64,000 nt of DNA from NCBI GenBank assembly GCA_023539445.1, contig JAKCEW010000004.1, positions 1 to 64,000 of the forward strand. Direction: 5' to 3'. The notes under the pieces were generated by a model. That model did no database searches. It was not told the origin of the DNA and saw nothing but the letters and a program-made list of their open reading frames with translations. This DNA is from Candidatus Terraquivivens yellowstonensis (lineage in GTDB: Archaea; Thermoproteota; Nitrososphaeria_A; Caldarchaeales; Wolframiiraptoraceae). Of this stretch, positions 28,279-36,318 are shown piece by piece. The translations under genes and the position numbers were made by a program. Position 1 is the stretch's first letter. Each line of letters starts with the position of its first letter.

Positions 28279-28287
28279 TTTAAATAA
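28279..28287 (+). promoter_or_regulatory. TATA box of the lysC-asd-aro operon
   Basis: TTTAAATAA with an upstream purine-rich BRE-like CGAAAC (28272-28277) places transcription start near 28310, about 135 nt before lysC. The leader RNA therefore begins ACAGAGAGG, at the 5' strand of a stable helix. Confidence 0.75.
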
Positions 28288-28326
28288 CAAACATCGGATG
28301 CAACTTACTACAGAGAGGCGGCGAAC

Positions 28327-28398
28327 GTGAGGGATTGCCTTTTCCTCACGACCGGCTATAGCTATTATCGCTATAGCGAGACAGGCGCCTCTCTCTGA
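28327..28398 (+). CDS. Possible Tyr-rich leader peptide of the aromatic operon
   Basis: GTG 28327 opens a 23-codon frame ending at TGA 28396-28398. The peptide contains TTGYSYYRYSETG: four Tyr in seven residues, plus one Phe upstream. GAGG (28315-28318) lies 8 nt before the GTG and belongs to the 5' strand of the closing helix. The Tyr codons (28357-28374) fall inside the CTATAGC/GCTATAG hairpin, so a ribosome waiting for Tyr-tRNA would melt it. The hairpin's own palindrome favours TAT triplets, so part of the Tyr enrichment could be coincidence. It has the form of a bacterial-style amino-acid leader peptide upstream of aromatic biosynthesis genes. Confidence 0.5.
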   Translation: MRDCLFLTTGYSYYRYSETGASL

Positions 28399-28410
28399 AG
28401 CCATCTCTCC

Positions 28411-28423
28411 TTTTGATGTTTTT
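28411..28423 (+). terminator. T-rich tract in the leader, candidate attenuator terminator
   Basis: TTTT-GATG-TTTTT lies between the leader peptide stop and the lysC ribosome-binding site. Archaeal RNA polymerase and FttA (aCPSF1, encoded at 61545-63446) terminate at such U-rich sites when translation is uncoupled. Confidence 0.4.
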
Positions 28424-28449
28424 ACCAGCTTTGGAGGGGGGTTGTGTCT

Positions 28450-29667
28450 ATGAAAGATATAATGGTTGTAAAGCTCGGTGGCTCTGTCCTTCAAGACTCT
28501 AAGGCTCTCGAAAAGGCGGCATCTTGGGTAAAGGACTTGCTGAAAGGGCATGGACTGGTTGTAGTAGTCTCTGCGCTAAAGGGAATGACTGATGAGCTAT
28601 TGAAGACGGCTAAGGAGGTGAACCCGGACATCCGACCTGACATGCTTGATGAGATTCTGGCGATGGGTGAAAGGACGAGTGCTAGGCTTTTCACGGCTGC
28701 GTTGAACAGGTTCGGCGTCGATGCTGTCTTGGTAGACCCATCCACTGAGTACTGGCCCATAATAACGGACGAGGAACATCTCGATGCGAATCCTATCTAC
28801 AGTGAGACGGAAAAACGATGTAAAGAGAAACTCTTACCACTAATCGAGGCTGGCAAAGTTCCTGTCGTATGTGGATATATTGGTGTTAGTACTTCAGGTA
28901 AGATAACTACGTTGGGTAGGGGTGGTAGTGACACGACCGCCATATTGCTCGGTAGTTGTCTAAATGCTACGGAAGTTGTCTTAATTAAGGATGTTGAGGG
29001 AATATATTCAGGAGATCCGGATAAAGTCAGCAAAGCCGAGATAATCGAGACGCTTAACGTGGACGAGGTTAGATTGCTGACCGAGGGCGGTGCGAAGGTC
29101 ATTCACTCGAAGGCACTAAGATACCTGTCAGAGGGGCTCAAGTTAAGAGTATCTAGCATGGAAGGTCTAGGAAGGTCAGGAACCGTCATAATCGGCACTC
29201 TCCCAAAGCTTGAGGTCAGCAGACATCCGGCTAAAGTGACCATGATAACAATACTTTCGAAAAATTCGGACGGGGCATCAATGGTTAAACTTGTTGTTGA
29301 GTTCGTTCAGAAGAATAATGGAGAGATCCTAAACATAACTACTGGTGAAAAATCCATCATCGTGTACGCAGACTTGGACACGAAGTTGATGGATGAATTG
29401 CATAAAGAAGTTGTTGAGTCGGGCATTGGCAAGGCCATAAGCTTTTTCGAGGGGTTATCCGCTATAAGTATAAGCGGCAGGATGCTTGAAACAAGTCCAG
29501 GCGTGATACATAAAGTCGTTGCGCCGCTCGCGATGTATGGTATAAACATATATGGTCTGGTGACTATAAGTTCATCCATCAGGATATTCGTTTCTGCAAA
29601 AGATGCAGAAAGGGCTGCCTCTCTTATAAAAGAAAATCTGGAGGTGGAATTGAATGAGACAAATTAA
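28450..29667 (+). CDS. lysC: Aspartate kinase
   Basis: This enzyme of about 405 residues makes aspartyl phosphate, the first step to aspartate semialdehyde. The kinase domain (1-265) starts VVKLGGSVLQD and has GRGGSDTTAILLG and VEGIYSGDPDKV. Two ACT domains (about 275-400) suggest feedback inhibition. ATG 28450 is about 8 nt after the GGAGGGGGG ribosome-binding site (28433-28441); GTG 28444 is also in frame but too close. It is first in an eight-gene operon in which its product feeds aromatic synthesis as well as Lys/Thr/Met. Confidence 0.95.
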   Translation: MKDIMVVKLGGSVLQDSKALEKAASWVKDLLKGHGLVVVVSALKGMTDELLKTAKEVNPDIRPDMLDEILAMGERTSARLFTAALNRFGVDAVLVDPSTEYWPIITDEEHLDANPIYSETEKRCKEKLLPLIEAGKVPVVCGYIGVSTSGKITTLGRGGSDTTAILLGSCLNATEVVLIKDVEGIYSGDPDKVSKAEIIETLNVDEVRLLTEGGAKVIHSKALRYLSEGLKLRVSSMEGLGRSGTVIIGTLPKLEVSRHPAKVTMITILSKNSDGASMVKLVVEFVQKNNGEILNITTGEKSIIVYADLDTKLMDELHKEVVESGIGKAISFFEGLSAISISGRMLETSPGVIHKVVAPLAMYGINIYGLVTISSSIRIFVSAKDAERAASLIKENLEVELNETN

Positions 29668-30709
29668 AGTTGCTGTGCTTGGAGCGACTGGAATGGTCGG
29701 TCAGCAATACGTAGGCATGCTCTCGAGACATCCATGGTTCAAGCTATCGTGTGTCACAGGGAAGGAGTCTGTCGGTAAGAAGTATGGAGAGGCTGTTAGG
29801 GGAAACCCCATCAACATTCCCTCTAGCGTAGTCGACATGGAGGTTTTACCGAATGAGCCAAAGTATGTTGACGCAGACCTCGTTTTCTCTCCGCTACCGA
29901 CCGAAGCCGCTCGTGAGTCGGAGCCGCTCTTTGCGCAAGAAGGTTTCCCCGTCGTGAGTGATGCCTCCGCTCATAGAATGGAGAAAGATGTCCCCCTCAT
30001 CGTGCCTGAGATAAATCCAGAACATATCGAGTTGATAGACATCCAGAAAAAGAATAGGAAGTGGGATGGATATATTGTAACAACGCCCAACTGCACAACC
30101 GTAGGTCTGGTCATGCCCCTTAAGCCCCTTCATGACGCTTATGTCCTTAAGAAAGTCATAGTGACTACGATGCAGGCGGTCTCGGGTGCAGGCTTCCCAG
30201 GCGTACCTTCACTATCCATACTCGGGAACGTCATACCGTATATATCTGGTGAGGAGGGAAAAGTGGAAAAAGAGACGCAGAAGATATTGGGAAAGTTCAA
30301 AGATGGAGCTATCGACCCAGCTCGCATAACCATCGAGGCAAGTTGCACCAGAGTTCCGACGATTGATGGACATCTAGAATCCGTCTACGTTGAAACGGAG
30401 AAGGCAGTAAGTGTAGACGATGCAAAAAGGATGCTAGCGGAGTTCAAAGGCATACCGCAGGAGTTGGGGCTCCCTACAGCTCCTGAGAAGCCGATAATCG
30501 TCATGGAGGAAGAGGACAGGCCGCAACCAAGGCTTGACATATATGCTGGAAGCGTTCCGGGCATGAGTGCGGTCGTTGGAAGGGTGAGGCCCGCAAAAGA
30601 CGAAAGGGCTTTAAAATTCTTTGTTCTCAGTCATAACACGATAAGGGGTGCTGCCGGAATAGCGATACTTACGGCTGAGTTATTGCACGCATCTGGGAGG
30701 ATAGAGTGA
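29654..30709 (+). CDS. asd: Aspartate-semialdehyde dehydrogenase
   Basis: This 351-residue NADP-dependent enzyme reduces aspartyl phosphate to aspartate semialdehyde. The N-terminal GATGMVGQQYV Rossmann motif and the catalytic Cys in TTPNCTTVGL (about residue 152) are clear. The start overlaps lysC by 14 nt, showing tight coupling. In this organism the product is also the amino-ketose precursor substrate for AroA', encoded next. Confidence 0.96.
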   Translation: MRQIKVAVLGATGMVGQQYVGMLSRHPWFKLSCVTGKESVGKKYGEAVRGNPINIPSSVVDMEVLPNEPKYVDADLVFSPLPTEAARESEPLFAQEGFPVVSDASAHRMEKDVPLIVPEINPEHIELIDIQKKNRKWDGYIVTTPNCTTVGLVMPLKPLHDAYVLKKVIVTTMQAVSGAGFPGVPSLSILGNVIPYISGEEGKVEKETQKILGKFKDGAIDPARITIEASCTRVPTIDGHLESVYVETEKAVSVDDAKRMLAEFKGIPQELGLPTAPEKPIIVMEEEDRPQPRLDIYAGSVPGMSAVVGRVRPAKDERALKFFVLSHNTIRGAAGIAILTAELLHASGRIE

Positions 30710-31506
30710 TGGTTTTCGGAAAGCAAGTTAGGTTGAACAGAATAACGGAAAAAGGAAAGATGTTATGCATACCGATGGATCACGGCGTTACTATAGGCCC
30801 AGTCAAAGGCTTAGACAAAATATTCGATACGATAGAAAAGGTAAGTCTCGGGGGAGCCACAGCTATTTTAGCACATAAAGGCATACTTAGAATGATGCCC
30901 AAACCCCTGAACGTAGGCACAATAATGCACGTATCTGCAAGCACGTCATTGGGGCTCTCGCCTAACTTCAAGGTAAGGGTTTCAAGCGTGGAAGAGGCGT
31001 TGAGGCTTGGAGCGGATGCCGTTTCCGTTCATGTTAACATTGGATGTAGCGATGAGCCGAAGATGTTGAAAAAACTTGGAATTCTTGCTGATGAGTGTGA
31101 TGAGTGGCAGGTACCATTCATAGCAATGATGTACCCGAGGGGTGAGAATATAAAAAATCCAAGCGATCCAGACATCGCCGCACATGTTGCAAGGATAGGC
31201 GCCGAGCTTGGAGCCGACATCATAAAGACGCCATACACAGGCAGTCCGGATACGTTTAGGAAAGTCGTGGATGGATGCCCCGTTCCTGTAGTTATAGCTG
31301 GCGGGCCGAAGGCAGAAAGCGACTTGGAAGTTTTGAAGATGGTAAAGGAAGCTATGGAGGCTGGCGCTATTGGTGCGGCGATAGGTAGGAACGTGTTTCA
31401 GCATGATAACCCATTCGCGATAACGAAGGCGCTCAGAGCAATAATAGTTGAAGAATATACAGTTAACGAAGCACTGGAGGTGCTCAAAGACGCCCTTGCT
31501 AAGTAA
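30709..31506 (+). CDS. aroA': 2-amino-3,7-dideoxy-D-threo-hept-6-ulosonate synthase (AroA')
   Basis: This 265-residue class I aldolase-like enzyme joins aspartate semialdehyde with a deoxyketohexose phosphate, replacing DAHP synthase. It has the DhnA-family features: CIPMDHGVTIGP at the N-terminus, the Schiff-base lysine region GADIIKTPYTG, and the phosphate-binding VVIAGGPKAES and GAIGAAIGRNVFQ. ATG 30709 overlaps the asd stop (TGATG); GTG 30706 is also possible. Being next to lysC-asd fits its need for aspartate semialdehyde. Confidence 0.93.
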   Translation: MVFGKQVRLNRITEKGKMLCIPMDHGVTIGPVKGLDKIFDTIEKVSLGGATAILAHKGILRMMPKPLNVGTIMHVSASTSLGLSPNFKVRVSSVEEALRLGADAVSVHVNIGCSDEPKMLKKLGILADECDEWQVPFIAMMYPRGENIKNPSDPDIAAHVARIGAELGADIIKTPYTGSPDTFRKVVDGCPVPVVIAGGPKAESDLEVLKMVKEAMEAGAIGAAIGRNVFQHDNPFAITKALRAIIVEEYTVNEALEVLKDALAK

Positions 31507-32548
31507 AAAAGAAGTTTGCTTAGATCTAAGGGACTGGGATGACGAAATCTTTAAGGAGGCACTGTCAAAAGGAATTACTGCATACTATTGCGACCCCGAT
31601 AACGTTCCTCAAGAATTCAGACAAAAAGTGACGACGTACTCAGATACACCAACTGGGGACGTTCTTGTTGTACCGCTCGGTAAAGAGGCGCCGCAAGCTA
31701 AGAGGTTTGCAGTATATGCCGTCGTTCTAAATTATGGCGACGTAGAAAAACTGATATCCGCAGCAAAACTTGGTGCTGAGGTTTTGATAGTAGATACTAA
31801 GGATTGGAAGATAATACCATTGGAAAACATAGTTGCATATTTGCAGAAAACGTCAGCGAAGCTCATGGCAAAAGTCAATAGCCCTGAAGAGGTTGAAACT
31901 ATGTATGGAATCCTAGAAAAGGGCGTCGATGCCGTCTTATTCAAGCCAAGGAGCAAAGCAGATATTGGTAGGATCTTTGATGCTATCAATTACATCGCGA
32001 ATGTTCAGCTTTCTCCGGTAAAAGTTGTAGAGGTTAAGGACGTGGGAATGGGAGATAGAGCATGTGTTGATACCGTATCTATTTTATCAATGGGCGAGGG
32101 GATGCTTGTTGGAAGTAAAGCAAGCTTTCTGTTCCTTGTACACAACGAGTCCATAGGCTCATCATTCACAGAACCGAGACCCTTCAGGGTGAATGCTGGT
32201 GCGATACATAGCTATGTCCTGACACCATCAGGCGGAACTAAATATTTGTCGGAGATAAAGGCAGGCGATAGAGTCTTAGTAATTAACACGCAGGGTTCAG
32301 CAAGACCTACCACAGTCGGCAGGGTAAAGATAGAAAGGAGGCCTTTGAGACTCATCAGGGCTGAGGTTGACGGTGAAGAGGGTTCCGTCATCTTGCAAAA
32401 TGCTGAGACCATAAGGCTCGTAGGGATTGATGGTAAACCTATCTCGGTAACAGAGATCAAGCCAGGCGATAAAGTATTGGCATACATAAGCAAGGAGAAG
32501 GCCAGACATTTCGGGATTGCCGTTGACGAATTCGTAATAGAGAGATAA
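31496..32548 (+). CDS. aroB': 3-dehydroquinate synthase II (AroB')
   Basis: This 350-residue archaeal enzyme oxidatively deaminates and cyclises the AroA' product to 3-dehydroquinate with NAD. Family features include CLDLRDWDD at the start, AKLGAEVLIVDTKDWKIIPLENIVA, and a C-terminal region with GDRACVDTVSILSMGEGMLVG, FRVNAGAIHSYV and the beta-rich tail. TTG 31496 is chosen; the longer frame (from 31448) would overlap AroA' with non-homologous sequence. The 11-nt overlap with AroA' implies coupling. Confidence 0.92.
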   Translation: MLSKKEVCLDLRDWDDEIFKEALSKGITAYYCDPDNVPQEFRQKVTTYSDTPTGDVLVVPLGKEAPQAKRFAVYAVVLNYGDVEKLISAAKLGAEVLIVDTKDWKIIPLENIVAYLQKTSAKLMAKVNSPEEVETMYGILEKGVDAVLFKPRSKADIGRIFDAINYIANVQLSPVKVVEVKDVGMGDRACVDTVSILSMGEGMLVGSKASFLFLVHNESIGSSFTEPRPFRVNAGAIHSYVLTPSGGTKYLSEIKAGDRVLVINTQGSARPTTVGRVKIERRPLRLIRAEVDGEEGSVILQNAETIRLVGIDGKPISVTEIKPGDKVLAYISKEKARHFGIAVDEFVIER

Positions 32549-32580: not shown

Positions 32581-33288
32581 ATGTTTATGACGACAGAACG
32601 GTTCAAAATGTGCGTATCAACGTTTGGAAGAGACGTACAATCTTTGAAAGATTCTGTGCTTAAAGCGATAAGTATCGGTGCGGATGTTGTAGAGGCCAGA
32701 CTCGATTATTTGGAAGATTTGGATGCCAACGTTTTAAGCTCGGTGCTGAGGCCTTACATGGATAAACTCATTTTAACTCTCAGACCTCATTATGAGAGCG
32801 GGTTATTTGAGGGTGATGAAGAAGAGAGAGCCAGGATTCTCAAACGGTTGAGCCGAGAGGCCCCAGCATACGTTGACATAGAGCTCCGTTCTCCCATGTT
32901 TCAAGATTTATTAAAAGAACTGATGAAGGCAGGCGTCACCGCAATAGTTTCATGGCACGACTTTGAAAAGACACCGGAAACCGATGAACTCCGAAGAATA
33001 GTCAGCTTAGCCATGAGTTGTGGAGGCATCGCTAAAGTTGTAACCATGGCGAAATCTTTCAGCGACAACCTAAGGATTCTCTCGCTATACCGTACGGATG
33101 ATAAACATAGGCTCATTGCTTTTTGCATGGGAGCGGAGGGCATCTTGTCGAGGTTTCTCTCAGTAATGCTTGGAGCGCCCTTCATGTATGTCTCATTGCC
33201 TGGGGCACCTACGGCACCCGGTCAACCCAGCATTACTGAGGCGAGGGAGCTTATACGCATACTTTCGTCAAACTACTATGGGAGGTGA
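32581..33288 (+). CDS. aroD: 3-dehydroquinate dehydratase, type I
   Basis: This 235-residue TIM-barrel enzyme forms 3-dehydroshikimate through a lysine Schiff base. VEARLDYLED, the catalytic His in VSWHDFEKTP and the lysine in GGIAKVVTMAKS are visible, as is SLPGAPTAPGQPS near the end. The product ends with a TGA (33286-33288), after which the aroE frame continues in the same phase without an in-frame start codon. A GGTGA-type ribosome-binding sequence precedes the start. Confidence 0.94.
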   Translation: MFMTTERFKMCVSTFGRDVQSLKDSVLKAISIGADVVEARLDYLEDLDANVLSSVLRPYMDKLILTLRPHYESGLFEGDEEERARILKRLSREAPAYVDIELRSPMFQDLLKELMKAGVTAIVSWHDFEKTPETDELRRIVSLAMSCGGIAKVVTMAKSFSDNLRILSLYRTDDKHRLIAFCMGAEGILSRFLSVMLGAPFMYVSLPGAPTAPGQPSITEARELIRILSSNYYGR

Positions 33289-34167
33289 GCGAACGTATCA
33301 GCGCAAACATGCTTTAGCAACAAAAGGCTTGTAGGTCTCGTCGGACATCCTGTGAAACACTCGATATCTCCGGACATTCACAATGCCGCATTCAATCACC
33401 TAAACCTCAACTATACCTATATCGCATTTGATGTAAAGGAAAATGAGTTCAGAGCTGCGGTCAGGGGCCTTAAGGCTCTAGGAGCCGCAGGCTTTAATGT
33501 GACGATACCATATAAGCAGAAGGTCGTGAGGTTTTTGGATAAACTTGCGGATGATGCAAAAACCATAAAGGCCGTGAACACCGTCGTAATTGATAAAGAT
33601 AGAATGTTTGGATACAACACGGATGTTCTAGGTGTAATAAAAGCTCTCATGCCCTACAAAGATATGTTGAGCGGTTGTGAGGCTTTGATACTTGGTGCGG
33701 GAGGGGGTGCTTCGGCTGCTGCTCTAGCGCTGGCTAGGCTCGGTTGCAATCATGTAACGTTTGTCAGCCGAACACCTTCAAAGGCCCGCAGGCTTGCGAG
33801 CTTCTTAAGACGCAGACTTAAAATTTCTGTAAAGGGTTTTGGTCTTTCAACAAGTAACTTATCCGCTATTGCTAAAGATTACAACGTCATAATTAATGCA
33901 ACGCCCGTTGGTATGTGGCCGAATAGCAGTCACTCATTACTCAAGAAGGAACAAATACGAAGCGGGTCTGTCGTAATGGACATGGTGTACAACCCTCCCG
34001 AGACTATGCTTCTTAAAGAGGCAAAGCTTGCGGGTGCCATATGTGTCTCTGGGCTGGACATGTTGATCTTTCAAGCCGCGGAGTCCTTTAAGTTGTGGAC
34101 TTCTTTAGAGCCACCAATAGAGGTTATGAAGAGCGCCGCCATAGAAGCGATAGGTCGTTTTGTATGA
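33285..34167 (+). CDS. aroE: Shikimate dehydrogenase, with an apparent frameshift near its start
   Basis: The NADP-dependent enzyme reduces dehydroshikimate. Motifs are GLVGHPVKHSISP (substrate loop), FNVTIPYKQKV with the catalytic Lys, NTDVLGV, GAGGGASAAALAL and ATPVGMWPN. The conserved first strand KRLVGLVGHP lies in a frame with no ATG, GTG or TTG before it. The only sensible start is GTG 33285, overlapping the aroD stop (GTGA). It gives MSERISAN, typical of archaeal AroE, but hits a stop at 33315. One extra base (or two missing) near 33308-33312 would join the two frames. Assembly error, mutation or recoding are all possible. GTG 33352 is in frame but removes the first strand. Confidence 0.82.
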
Positions 34168-35042
34168 AGGCTACCGCTAGAGCACATGGTGCTATAACGA
34201 TCGTTAACGCCATATCAACCGGTAAAGGAGCGGCCATGGGCATTGACCTTTACACCGAAGCCACAGTAGAAATAGGCGGCAGGGACGTGGAAGTTATTAT
34301 AAAAGAAAATCCAGATGAAGACACAACGCTAGCAAAGGCGGCGGTGAAGAGGGTATTGAAGTTAGTGCAAATGGACTGCGGGGCGCATGTTGAAATCAGC
34401 TCGAACATACCAATTGGTAAGGGTTTGAAGAGTTCCAGCGCAGCCGCTAATGCTATAGTTCTGGCTACGGCAAGGGCTATGAACTTGAACTTGAGCGATG
34501 CTGAGATATTAAACATAGCTGTTGATGCTGCGATCGAGGCTGGTGTTACCATAACGGGTGCTTATGACGATGCTTGCGCTAGTTATTATGGCGGGATTGT
34601 TGTCACAGATAACCTGAGGAGGCAGATCGTGAAAAGGGATGAGGCCCCAGAAGACCTTTTTGTTGTTTTGCTTGTCCCAGAATTTAAGAGCTATACTAAG
34701 TTTTTCGACAAGAATTTGCTTAAACCTATCGCATCTTTCGTTGAGGTCGCGTATAGGATGTCCCTAAATGGGGAATATTGGAGGGCCCTAACACTCAACG
34801 GCATACTTCATGCGGCAGCGTTAAACTATGGAGCGAAGAAAGCTTTAGATGCCATAAGGGCGGGAGCCTTAGCCGCTGGCCTATCCGGCACCGGACCTGC
34901 TATCGCTGCTGTGTGTAACAAAGATGTGATGAACGATGTTGCCAGTGCATTGAGTGAAAAAGGATGCGATATTATAATAGCTAAGCCAAACAATAAGAAG
35001 GCATATTCATGGGTTGGTGGTTCCGTTGCAGGTTTCGGTTAA
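34164..35042 (+). CDS. aroK: Shikimate kinase, archaeal GHMP type
   Basis: This 292-residue GHMP-family kinase, unrelated to bacterial AroK, phosphorylates shikimate. It starts MKATARAHGAITIVNAI and has the ATP loop PIGKGLKSSSAAANAI (about residue 85-100) and the C-terminal AAGLSGTGPAIAAV motif. ATG 34164 overlaps the aroE stop (ATGA); the frame extends 69 nt further upstream inside aroE, but that part lacks homology. The gene is translationally coupled within the aromatic operon. Confidence 0.93.
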   Translation: MKATARAHGAITIVNAISTGKGAAMGIDLYTEATVEIGGRDVEVIIKENPDEDTTLAKAAVKRVLKLVQMDCGAHVEISSNIPIGKGLKSSSAAANAIVLATARAMNLNLSDAEILNIAVDAAIEAGVTITGAYDDACASYYGGIVVTDNLRRQIVKRDEAPEDLFVVLLVPEFKSYTKFFDKNLLKPIASFVEVAYRMSLNGEYWRALTLNGILHAAALNYGAKKALDAIRAGALAAGLSGTGPAIAAVCNKDVMNDVASALSEKGCDIIIAKPNNKKAYSWVGGSVAGFG

Positions 35043-36318
35043 ACCTTCGGTAATATCAGGCAAGGTGCGAGCTCCACCTAGTAAAAGCTACAGCCATAGG
35101 GCGATAATAGCCGCCTCTATGACAGATGGCAAGTGTGTTGTAGAAAATGTTTCAAGATCCGATGATGTTCTTGCTACGATTAATGCATGTAAAAAATTCG
35201 GTGCCTCCATCGAGGAGGAAGGCGACAAACTCATCATCCAAGGTTTCTCAACACCTAATGCACCGGATGATGTTATAAATGTTCAGAATTCGGGAACAAC
35301 GTTAAGGATAATGACCGGTGTAAGCTGCTTGGTTCAGGCCGGCTACGTAGTCCTCACAGGCGATGAGAGCATAAGGAGGAGACCGATGCAACCACTTCTC
35401 GATGCCCTCAATATGCTTGGAGGGGAGTGTTGGTCTGCAAGGCTTAACGGCTGCGCACCCATAATAGTTAAAGGCGGGGGATTAAAGGGCGGCAACGCTT
35501 GGATGACCGGTAAAATATCCTCACAGTTCGTCTCCTCCATACTTTTCTCATCACCAAAGGCCTCAAGCGATACGTCGCTCATGATACAAGGAGAGCTTGT
35601 CTCGAGACCTTACGTTGATGCAACCATAAACGTACTTGAGAGGTTCGGTGTTCATATAGAAAGAGAAGGGTATAGGATCTTTCGCATTCCTTCGCAACAA
35701 AATTTTAAGCCCACGTGTTTCATAGTTCCTGGAGATTTCGGACTCGCTTCCTTCATGATGGCTGCGGCGCTCATGACGGACGGTTCAATTACGGTTGAAG
35801 GGCTCAGTCAAGATTTGCCGCAAGCCGATGCCGCCATAGTTGATATACTTACTGAAATGGGAGCTAATGTTAAGCTGGATTACGTTTCTGGAAACGTGAG
35901 CGTTAGCGGAGGCGGAAAGCTTAGGGGCGGTAGCTTTAATCTATCCGATTCGCCAGACCTCTTACCTGTCGTAGCAGTCTTAGCAACTAAATGTGAGGGG
36001 ACAGTAGAGATAACAGGCGTGGAGCATGCGAGAGTTAAGGAAAGCGATAGGGTCAGCGCACTTGCTCATGCCCTTTCTAAGATAGGGATGAACGTAAGAG
36101 AAGCAGCAGATGGTTTGAGCATAACGCGGGGCAAGCTTGTTAAGCACGCTATACTCGACCCCAAAGGAGACCACAGGCTTTTCATGGCGTATTGTCTTTT
36201 AGGACTTATCTTAGAAGGAGGATGTACAGTACTAGGAGCAGAGTCCGCGAGCGTATCCTACCCGAATTTTCTTAGGGACCTTGCTAGTCTAGGTGCAAAG
36301 TTTGAGCTATTAGAATGA
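35017..36318 (+). CDS. aroA: 3-phosphoshikimate 1-carboxyvinyltransferase (EPSP synthase)
   Basis: This protein of about 433 residues adds enolpyruvate to shikimate 3-phosphate. Motifs are APPSKSYSHRAII (PEP/S3P site), NSGTTLRIMTG, GDESIRRRPMQPLLDAL, SSQFVSSILF and the C-terminal RVKESDR and DPKGDHRLFMAY. The start is in the last 26 nt of aroK; GTG 35017, TTG 35014 and TTG 35026 are possible. It is the last gene of the operon; no chorismate synthase follows within the window. Confidence 0.95.
   Translation: MVPLQVSVKPSVISGKVRAPPSKSYSHRAIIAASMTDGKCVVENVSRSDDVLATINACKKFGASIEEEGDKLIIQGFSTPNAPDDVINVQNSGTTLRIMTGVSCLVQAGYVVLTGDESIRRRPMQPLLDALNMLGGECWSARLNGCAPIIVKGGGLKGGNAWMTGKISSQFVSSILFSSPKASSDTSLMIQGELVSRPYVDATINVLERFGVHIEREGYRIFRIPSQQNFKPTCFIVPGDFGLASFMMAAALMTDGSITVEGLSQDLPQADAAIVDILTEMGANVKLDYVSGNVSVSGGGKLRGGSFNLSDSPDLLPVVAVLATKCEGTVEITGVEHARVKESDRVSALAHALSKIGMNVREAADGLSITRGKLVKHAILDPKGDHRLFMAYCLLGLILEGGCTVLGAESASVSYPNFLRDLASLGAKFELLE

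Follow-up and report, generated by a model that had tools for sequence, protein, structure and literature searches.

The lysC–asd–aro operon of Terraquivivens and its leader

The window, by which we mean the whole 64,000-nucleotide stretch of Candidatus Terraquivivens yellowstonensis DNA that was analysed, carries an operon that begins with lysC and asd, continues into genes of aromatic biosynthesis and is preceded by a leader of approximately 135 nt, lying between a TATA-like box and lysC. The features of this region are listed below, with P1 and P2 denoting two helices of the leader RNA.

28279–28287, + strand: TATA box-like element TTTAAATAA, from sequence
28312–28320, + strand: strand 1, AGAGAGGCG, 5' arm of P1, holding the leader ribosome-binding site (RBS), from sequence
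28327–28398, + strand: leader peptide ORF, GTG at 28327 to TGA ending at 28398, encoding the 23 aa peptide VRDCLFLTTGYSYYRYSETGASL, with four Tyr codons and one Phe codon
28327–28349, + strand: hairpin GTGAGG / CCTCAC at the ORF start, ribosome-free fold
28355–28377, + strand: hairpin GCTATAGC-TATTATC-GCTATAGC holding the Tyr codons (arms 28355–28362 and 28370–28377), ribosome-free fold
28386–28394, + strand: strand 2, CGCCTCTCT, 3' arm of P1, overlapping the ORF end, from sequence
28388–28401, + strand: 5' arm of P2, CCTCTCTCTGAAGC, including the leader stop codon, minimum free energy (MFE) fold
28411–28423, + strand: T-rich tract between leader and lysC, a possible termination signal, weak here, from sequence
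28428–28441, + strand: 3' arm of P2, GCTTTGGAGGGGGG, containing the lysC RBS, MFE fold
28444–29667, + strand: lysC, aspartate kinase, start GTG 28444 or ATG 28450
29654–30709, + strand: asd, aspartate-semialdehyde dehydrogenase (TIGR00978)
30706–31506, + strand: ADH synthase (2-amino-3,7-dideoxy-D-threo-hept-6-ulosonate synthase; TIGR01949)
31469–32548, + strand: 3-dehydroquinate synthase II (best match NF002627, E 3e-104, 349 bits)
32581–36318, + strand: aroD, aroE, archaeal shikimate kinase and aroA (EPSP synthase) (TIGR01093, TIGR00507, TIGR01920, TIGR01356)

The operon enzymes were confirmed by NCBIfam models, the 349-bit match of 3-dehydroquinate synthase II falling below the model cut-off of 392 bits. 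The LysC proteins on sister contigs of Candidatus Terraquivivens are 88–91% identical to that of the window, and the start of lysC is probably the GTG at 28444, the sister species having ATG at the same codon. Each of the six species in the genus has either CGTTTAAATAA or CGCTTAAATAA as its TATA-like element, and on the basis of this element transcription would be expected to start at around 28305–28310.

The Tyr codons of the leader ORF lie at 28357, 28363, 28366 and 28372 and the Phe codon at 28342, while its RBS, GAGG, occupies 28315–28318 within AGAGAGGCG. All six species have the ORF, with TAT replaced by TGG in two of them and by TAC in one, and the first 35 nt of the leader are highly conserved in the genus. 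Five aromatic codons in 12 are not beyond chance for the window alone (p = 0.075), and it is the comparative data, rather than the window by itself, that make the aromatic content of this leader significant.

The N-terminus of the window peptide, V-R-D-C-L-F (28327–28344), resembles that of the trpE leaders described below, with Phe replacing Trp, and is invariant in the genus but for one Cys-to-Arg change. Similar starts, VTGDCVF and LRGDCVY, are seen in other lysC–aro leaders (L073 and L068). A pattern search of 41 genomes for the shared N-terminal motif gave no excess over a reversed-pattern control.

Predicted structure of the leader RNA

P1 is an exact helix of 9 bp, formed by 28312–28320 with 28386–28394, and P2 is the MFE structure of 28300–28453 (-60.7 kcal/mol, z -4.25, with 0 of 200 shuffles as good). 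As one strand is common to both, P1 and P2 are mutually exclusive. The predicted ribosome-free fold of the leader combines P1, the Tyr-codon hairpin and a pairing of CTCTCC (28405–28410) with GGAGGG (28433–28438), which likewise masks the lysC RBS. Between the leader stop and lysC, folding gives a z of -2.9 in the window and -7.8 in genome G001.

Covariation within the genus was uninformative: P1 shows no variation at all, and thus no local covariation, the GTGAGG / CCTCAC hairpin shows wobble-compatible changes only, and an arm of the Tyr-codon hairpin is disrupted in two sister species, which retain the aromatic codons. In Rfam searches at gathering and permissive thresholds, no family came close to threshold within the leader.

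The preliminary description of the locus had listed a TATA box, a 23-residue frame, the helices, a T tract and pairing of the lysC RBS, all of which were confirmed to be present. It had also read the T tract as terminator-like; the tract exists, with a longest T run of 5 (T5 at 28419–28423), but it is not the strongest repressive candidate in the genus, that being sequestration of the lysC RBS, an inference from sequence which leaves the switch itself unsettled.

Aromatic leaders track the front of aromatic operons

The lysC loci were gathered from the phylum and oriented, and their downstream genes were assigned using the window enzymes as queries, providing a natural control in which lysC with aromatic genes downstream (56 loci) could be compared with lysC without them (28 loci). 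ORFs were picked by one rule in both groups and in dinucleotide-preserving shuffles, and counted as leaders if 12 codons held five or more F/Y/W. An aromatic leader ORF was found upstream of lysC in 45 of the 56 aromatic loci and 2 of the 28 others (Mann–Whitney p 1.4e-9), the exceptions being L058, which has a true leader before lysC–asd and its ADH synthase elsewhere in the genome, and L088, where the contig ends in lysC. Examples of the encoded peptides, each running to the stop codon, are MELTKNACIVFFFSFWSYYYFALA, MKAAHFYRFSGYTYYRI, VRVVRAVGLTCTGFSAFTTFSYYYRW, MFNTENLRPSFGKTFDTYSFSYFFYYSF, the peptide end QMRFFSFGYYFYYYFH, and MTMASEGSRKKVFGFFYGFYFYFYFGP. No clear leader is seen in around 11 aromatic loci (e.g. 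L068/L069, L093/L128, L094/L104 and L098), the leader of L067 lacks a standard start codon, and in the Asgard locus L037 (Sigynarchaeota) the order lysC–asd–ADH synthase–DHQS is kept and no aromatic leader was found. The genomes are phylogenetically related, so these p-values overstate the number of independent events.

Strong enrichment is limited to aromatic residues: over 43 aromatic loci the combined Z against dinucleotide shuffles was 13.6 for Tyr, 7.1 for Phe, 2.7 for Trp and 17.1 for the three together, compared with 3.7 for Thr, 2.6 for Ser and less than 2 for every other residue. In the last 13 codons aromatic frequency is 0.4–0.75 at most positions, compared with mostly below 0.2 upstream of these. 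Both Phe codons are used about equally (TTT 75, TTC 73), with Tyr encoded by TAT 111 times and TAC 47 times, and among close pairs of leaders 11 of the 23 altered aromatic codons remain aromatic, six of them via F/Y/W exchange. The conserved unit is codon content, not DNA.

The leader also tracks the operon front rather than lysC, standing ahead of asd or ADH synthase in loci that have no lysC. Where ADH synthase comes first, as in genus g2, the leader precedes ADH synthase (L281, VMNGGGRARLSGFGGLWSYWYFGFCYFALA; L282; L283), and where asd comes first, as in family f2, it precedes asd (VGCSNFKFTGFTTYAYFYAWKS in L276, MSRGRGVGRSNPTFLTWTTTYAYFFGPSI in L277 and VRAEGVGMGRVNLLGFAFTAYTYFYFWEG in L280). 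No aromatic leader was found in ammonia-oxidizing archaea upstream of ADH synthase, nor in genus g8 upstream of the asd–ADH synthase genes.

These comparisons bear on two points of the preliminary description. It would have been refuted by relatives that lost the frame or the Tyr codons and kept other sequence; the opposite was found, the C-terminal F/Y/W cluster being retained while DNA, peptide, hairpins and even the first operon gene change. It had further cautioned that the hairpin palindrome itself favours TAT codons, which is answered by leaders that do not have this palindrome, such as those with FFFSFWSYYYF, FSYYYRW and SFGYYFYYYFH; a chance palindrome generating the TAT codons is ruled out by these other clades.

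Hairpins at the leader stop codon

The region from leader stop to lysC is more strongly folded than in controls, with a mean z of -2.54 in 48 leaders compared with +0.24 in 27 controls (p 1e-9), and z below -2 in 33/48 and 1/27, respectively. Two classes of hairpin can be distinguished. In class A, which includes the window, L055/L056, L058, L067, L072 and L036, the hairpin pairs a 5' arm at the leader stop with the RBS of the next gene, which forms its 3' arm. In class B the hairpin spans or follows the stop, with the next RBS remaining free; it is followed by a U-run in L077/L078 (GCUUCGAAACC...GGUUUCGAAGC-UUUUU), L086, L096/L097 and L124, and lacks one in family f5 and genus g5. A terminator-like stem with U-run also occurs in L091/L092, while several leaders have no T run longer than 3.

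P1, which pairs the leader RBS region with the ORF end or the segment just after it, is found order-wide, with each genome having its own exact helix; those of other genera are 7–12 bp and differ in sequence. Examples are AGAGAGGCG/CGCCTCTCT, TCTGAGGCGG/CCGCCTCAGA, GGCCGGAGG/CCTCCGGCC, AGAGCAGGGGGA/TCCCCCTGCTCT and GAGCGGAGGGGG/CCCCCTCCGCTC. Exact P1 helices average 9.7 bp when both strands come from the same genome and 6.5 bp when they are drawn across genomes (p 8e-8).

A different pairing, between the leader start and the aromatic codons themselves, was observed in asd leaders (L277, L278 and L280) and in f5 lysC leaders (e.g. L079 and L083), exemplified by GTAGGTATGGGCCGTG/CACGGCCTATACCTAC in L280 and GGTTCGAAGCT/AGCTTCG in f5.

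A proposed model of ribosome-controlled attenuation

What the sequences establish is the ORF content, its restriction to aromatic operons, the hairpin and the alternative pairings, with the structures resting on prediction and cross-genus complementarity. The likely explanation is that the lysC–asd–aro leader is a ribosome-controlled attenuator, as the preliminary description had proposed; that reading is supported, while translation, stalling, the response to Tyr/Phe starvation and the direction and level of control are inferred and remain unproved. These archaea are uncultured, and no RNA or ribosome data exist for leader translation or regulation.

According to this model, a ribosome would initiate on the short promoter-proximal ORF and reach the Tyr/Phe/Trp codon cluster near its end. 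When charged aromatic tRNAs are plentiful, the ribosome would finish and leave, the stop-codon hairpin would form and the operon would be turned down; when they are scarce, the ribosome would wait on the aromatic codons and block or redirect the hairpin, allowing expression. In the genus and several of its order-mates P2 would cover the lysC or asd RBS, suggesting control of translation, and the 5' arm of P2 may alternatively pair with the leader's own RBS (P1), in the role of an anti-sequestor or a self-limiting helix. Hairpins with a U-run in other clades suggest that control is probably exerted there through transcription termination.

In most clades the aromatic codons end 0–3 codons before the stop, and a waiting ribosome would for this reason cover the 5' arm of the hairpin. 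Placing a ribosome on the last aromatic codon in the folding model abolishes most predicted downstream structure in many leaders, e.g. from -26 to -9 kcal/mol. In Terraquivivens the last Tyr lies seven codons before the stop, the front edge of the modelled ribosome stops just short of strand 2, and equilibrium folding with the ribosome parked on this codon does not free the lysC RBS. The simplest version of the model, in which a stalled ribosome masks the 5' arm and thereby frees the lysC RBS, fails here with respect to RBS opening. As simple masking is insufficient, kinetics, P1 or termination must act: P1 may assemble around the stalled ribosome while strand 3 is still to be transcribed (transcript to stop+16), or the T tract may bring about termination. 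The exact switch in the window is not settled, and the choice between P1 kinetics and T-tract termination is undecided.

Alternative explanations

The strongest rival keeps the leader peptide and makes transcription termination, either U-tract or FttA/aCPSF1 dependent, the main level of control, the window included. In its favour are the U-runs after strong hairpins in L077/L078, L086, L096/L097 and L124, the T5 at 28419–28423, and the preference of FttA for U-rich RNA together with its hypothesised exclusion by a coupled ribosome (PMC11616081). Against it, no stem lies immediately before the T tract in the genus, where the lysC RBS is itself part of the stable helix, and several leaders lack a T run of more than 3. 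We regard this rival as possible but clearly less likely than the main account.

An arrest peptide similar to TnaC, in which the nascent peptide senses the free aromatic amino acid instead of codon starvation, is unlikely. The VRDCLF of the window does resemble the MRDxVW of trpE leaders and is near-invariant in the genus, but this N-terminal motif is absent from most clades and the aromatic cluster varies among clades in length, order, spacing and sequence, unlike arrest peptides. The conserved sequence, with invariant residues at fixed spacing, expected of an arrest peptide of the TnaC or SecM type is not present in the aromatic clusters, though the VRDCLF part and the trpE leaders might still fit this expectation.

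Very little speaks for a metabolite-binding RNA, i.e. a riboswitch for Tyr/Phe or shikimate intermediates in which the ORF is incidental. Strong structure in the leader (z -4.25) and strong conservation of its first 35 nt within the genus count in its favour, but there is no Rfam match, the clades share no sequence or fold, only in-frame aromatic codons beside a hairpin, and both synonymous changes and F/Y/W exchanges are seen. The untranslated metabolite-sensing RNA named as an alternative in the preliminary description is likewise disfavoured, because the only cross-clade feature is codon content in one frame beside a hairpin.

That the ORF is a functional aromatic-rich small protein, or a pattern arising by chance, has only the p = 0.075 of the window alone to support it and can be all but excluded, given the absence of a conserved peptide sequence, the strict link to aromatic operons, the combined Z of 17, and the hairpin and first operon gene that follow the ORF.

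Comparison with known systems

Ribosome-mediated attenuation is textbook knowledge in bacteria (trpL, pheL, hisL, ilvL). The archaeal leaders share with these a short ORF rich in end-product codons, alternative hairpins and the use of ribosome position as sensor, but differ in having a mixed Tyr/Phe/Trp cluster at the C-terminus, immediately before the stop, in a stop-codon hairpin that in some clades covers the RBS of the next gene, in preceding an aspartate-semialdehyde-based aromatic pathway, and in their archaeal hosts, where the bacterial hairpin terminator is not the rule in termination. Comparative-genomic evidence of a comparable type exists in Actinobacteria, which are however bacterial, for leader peptides that precede amino acid operons, ilvBNC among them (PMC1262725, PMC11857589). 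The erm leaders are translation attenuators that act via RBS sequestration. They are alike in that ribosome position on the leader ORF decides the accessibility of the next RBS; the archaeal signal is probably aminoacyl-tRNA supply, whereas that of erm is a drug. Archaeal TrpY-type promoter regulators and promoter-proximal elongation control (PMC8448881) similarly govern biosynthetic operons or early elongation but, unlike the leader, work on the promoter or the polymerase.

According to a 2021 paper (PMC8448881), archaea had no known mechanism of transcription attenuation or antitermination, and the open-access full-text literature that we searched held no precedent for an archaeal leader-peptide attenuator, with the possibility of an unseen report remaining. 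The leaders would thus represent a known control principle in a domain where, within that literature, it has not previously been described. A bolder reading, towards which we lean without great confidence, is that leader-peptide attenuation is widespread in the phylum, encompassing the aromatic, ilvB and possibly trpE leaders, that some clades employ ribosome coupling to U-tract/FttA-dependent termination, and that this would constitute the first attenuation system known in Archaea. The leaders offer a defined set, spread over roughly 25 genera or more, on which the idea can be tested, and bring regulatory annotation to aromatic and branched-chain pathways in lineages with almost no known regulators. 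If confirmed, they would show that archaea couple transcription or translation to the ribosome for metabolic sensing, and would raise the question of an origin independent of bacteria.

Leaders upstream of other amino acid operons

No His leaders before hisG and no Phe leaders before pheA were found in the loci examined. In the AmoA-bearing (ammonia-oxidizing) archaea, ilvB is preceded by ORFs ending in Leu/Val/Ile runs (MVEIDSTSISSILLLVELVL, MKLGGSASISSILLLVDLML and MNKISKTGIVSILLLVDLKL, each followed by the stop), several of which have a small stop-codon hairpin and U-run (GCUGUAAAAUACAGC-AAUUUU), with a mean z of 2.0 over 30 loci. These are, by inference from sequence, likely to be branched-chain leader peptides and, as the ammonia-oxidizing archaea include cultured members, ribosome profiling and RNA end mapping are feasible now.

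Individual ilvB (acetolactate synthase) leaders ending in SSILLLVELVL or GILLLVDLVL before the stop were noted among L211, L216, L250–L255, L258–L263 and L272; L251 is an exception among the ammonia-oxidizing ilvB loci, most others carrying the Leu/Val/Ile ORF. Upstream of ilvB in L203 and L208, an ILV-rich ORF (ending INALLLLSETVVGAPSLFVNSVNVVILK) is followed by a GCGCCTTAAG...CTTAAGGCGC hairpin, and L203 also has a GATGGGGC/GCCCCATC helix, an architecture matching the aromatic leaders. The GTGAGGGAT start motif recurs before ilvB in L190, L192, L193 and L207 (VRDIRVRRNRY.., VRDRHLN..), and in L193 and L207 it is followed by CCTCA, a sequence that might close a hairpin like that of the window.

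Similarly, a short ORF recurs upstream of trpE, with Trp encoded near codon 6. Its pattern, start-R/G-D/G-x-V/L/I-W (ATGAGGGATNNNNTTTGG, ATGGGTGGACATCTTTGG and GGCATGTGCCTTTGG), is conserved throughout the phylum (L133, L135, L139, L140, L143, L147, L149, L154 and L157), and the T preceding TGG is retained even at a wobble position. In L130, L141 and L142, trpE is also preceded by GTACA-type inverted repeats (TGTACATTTTTGTAC) 5' of the TATA box, which we take to resemble TrpY operators.
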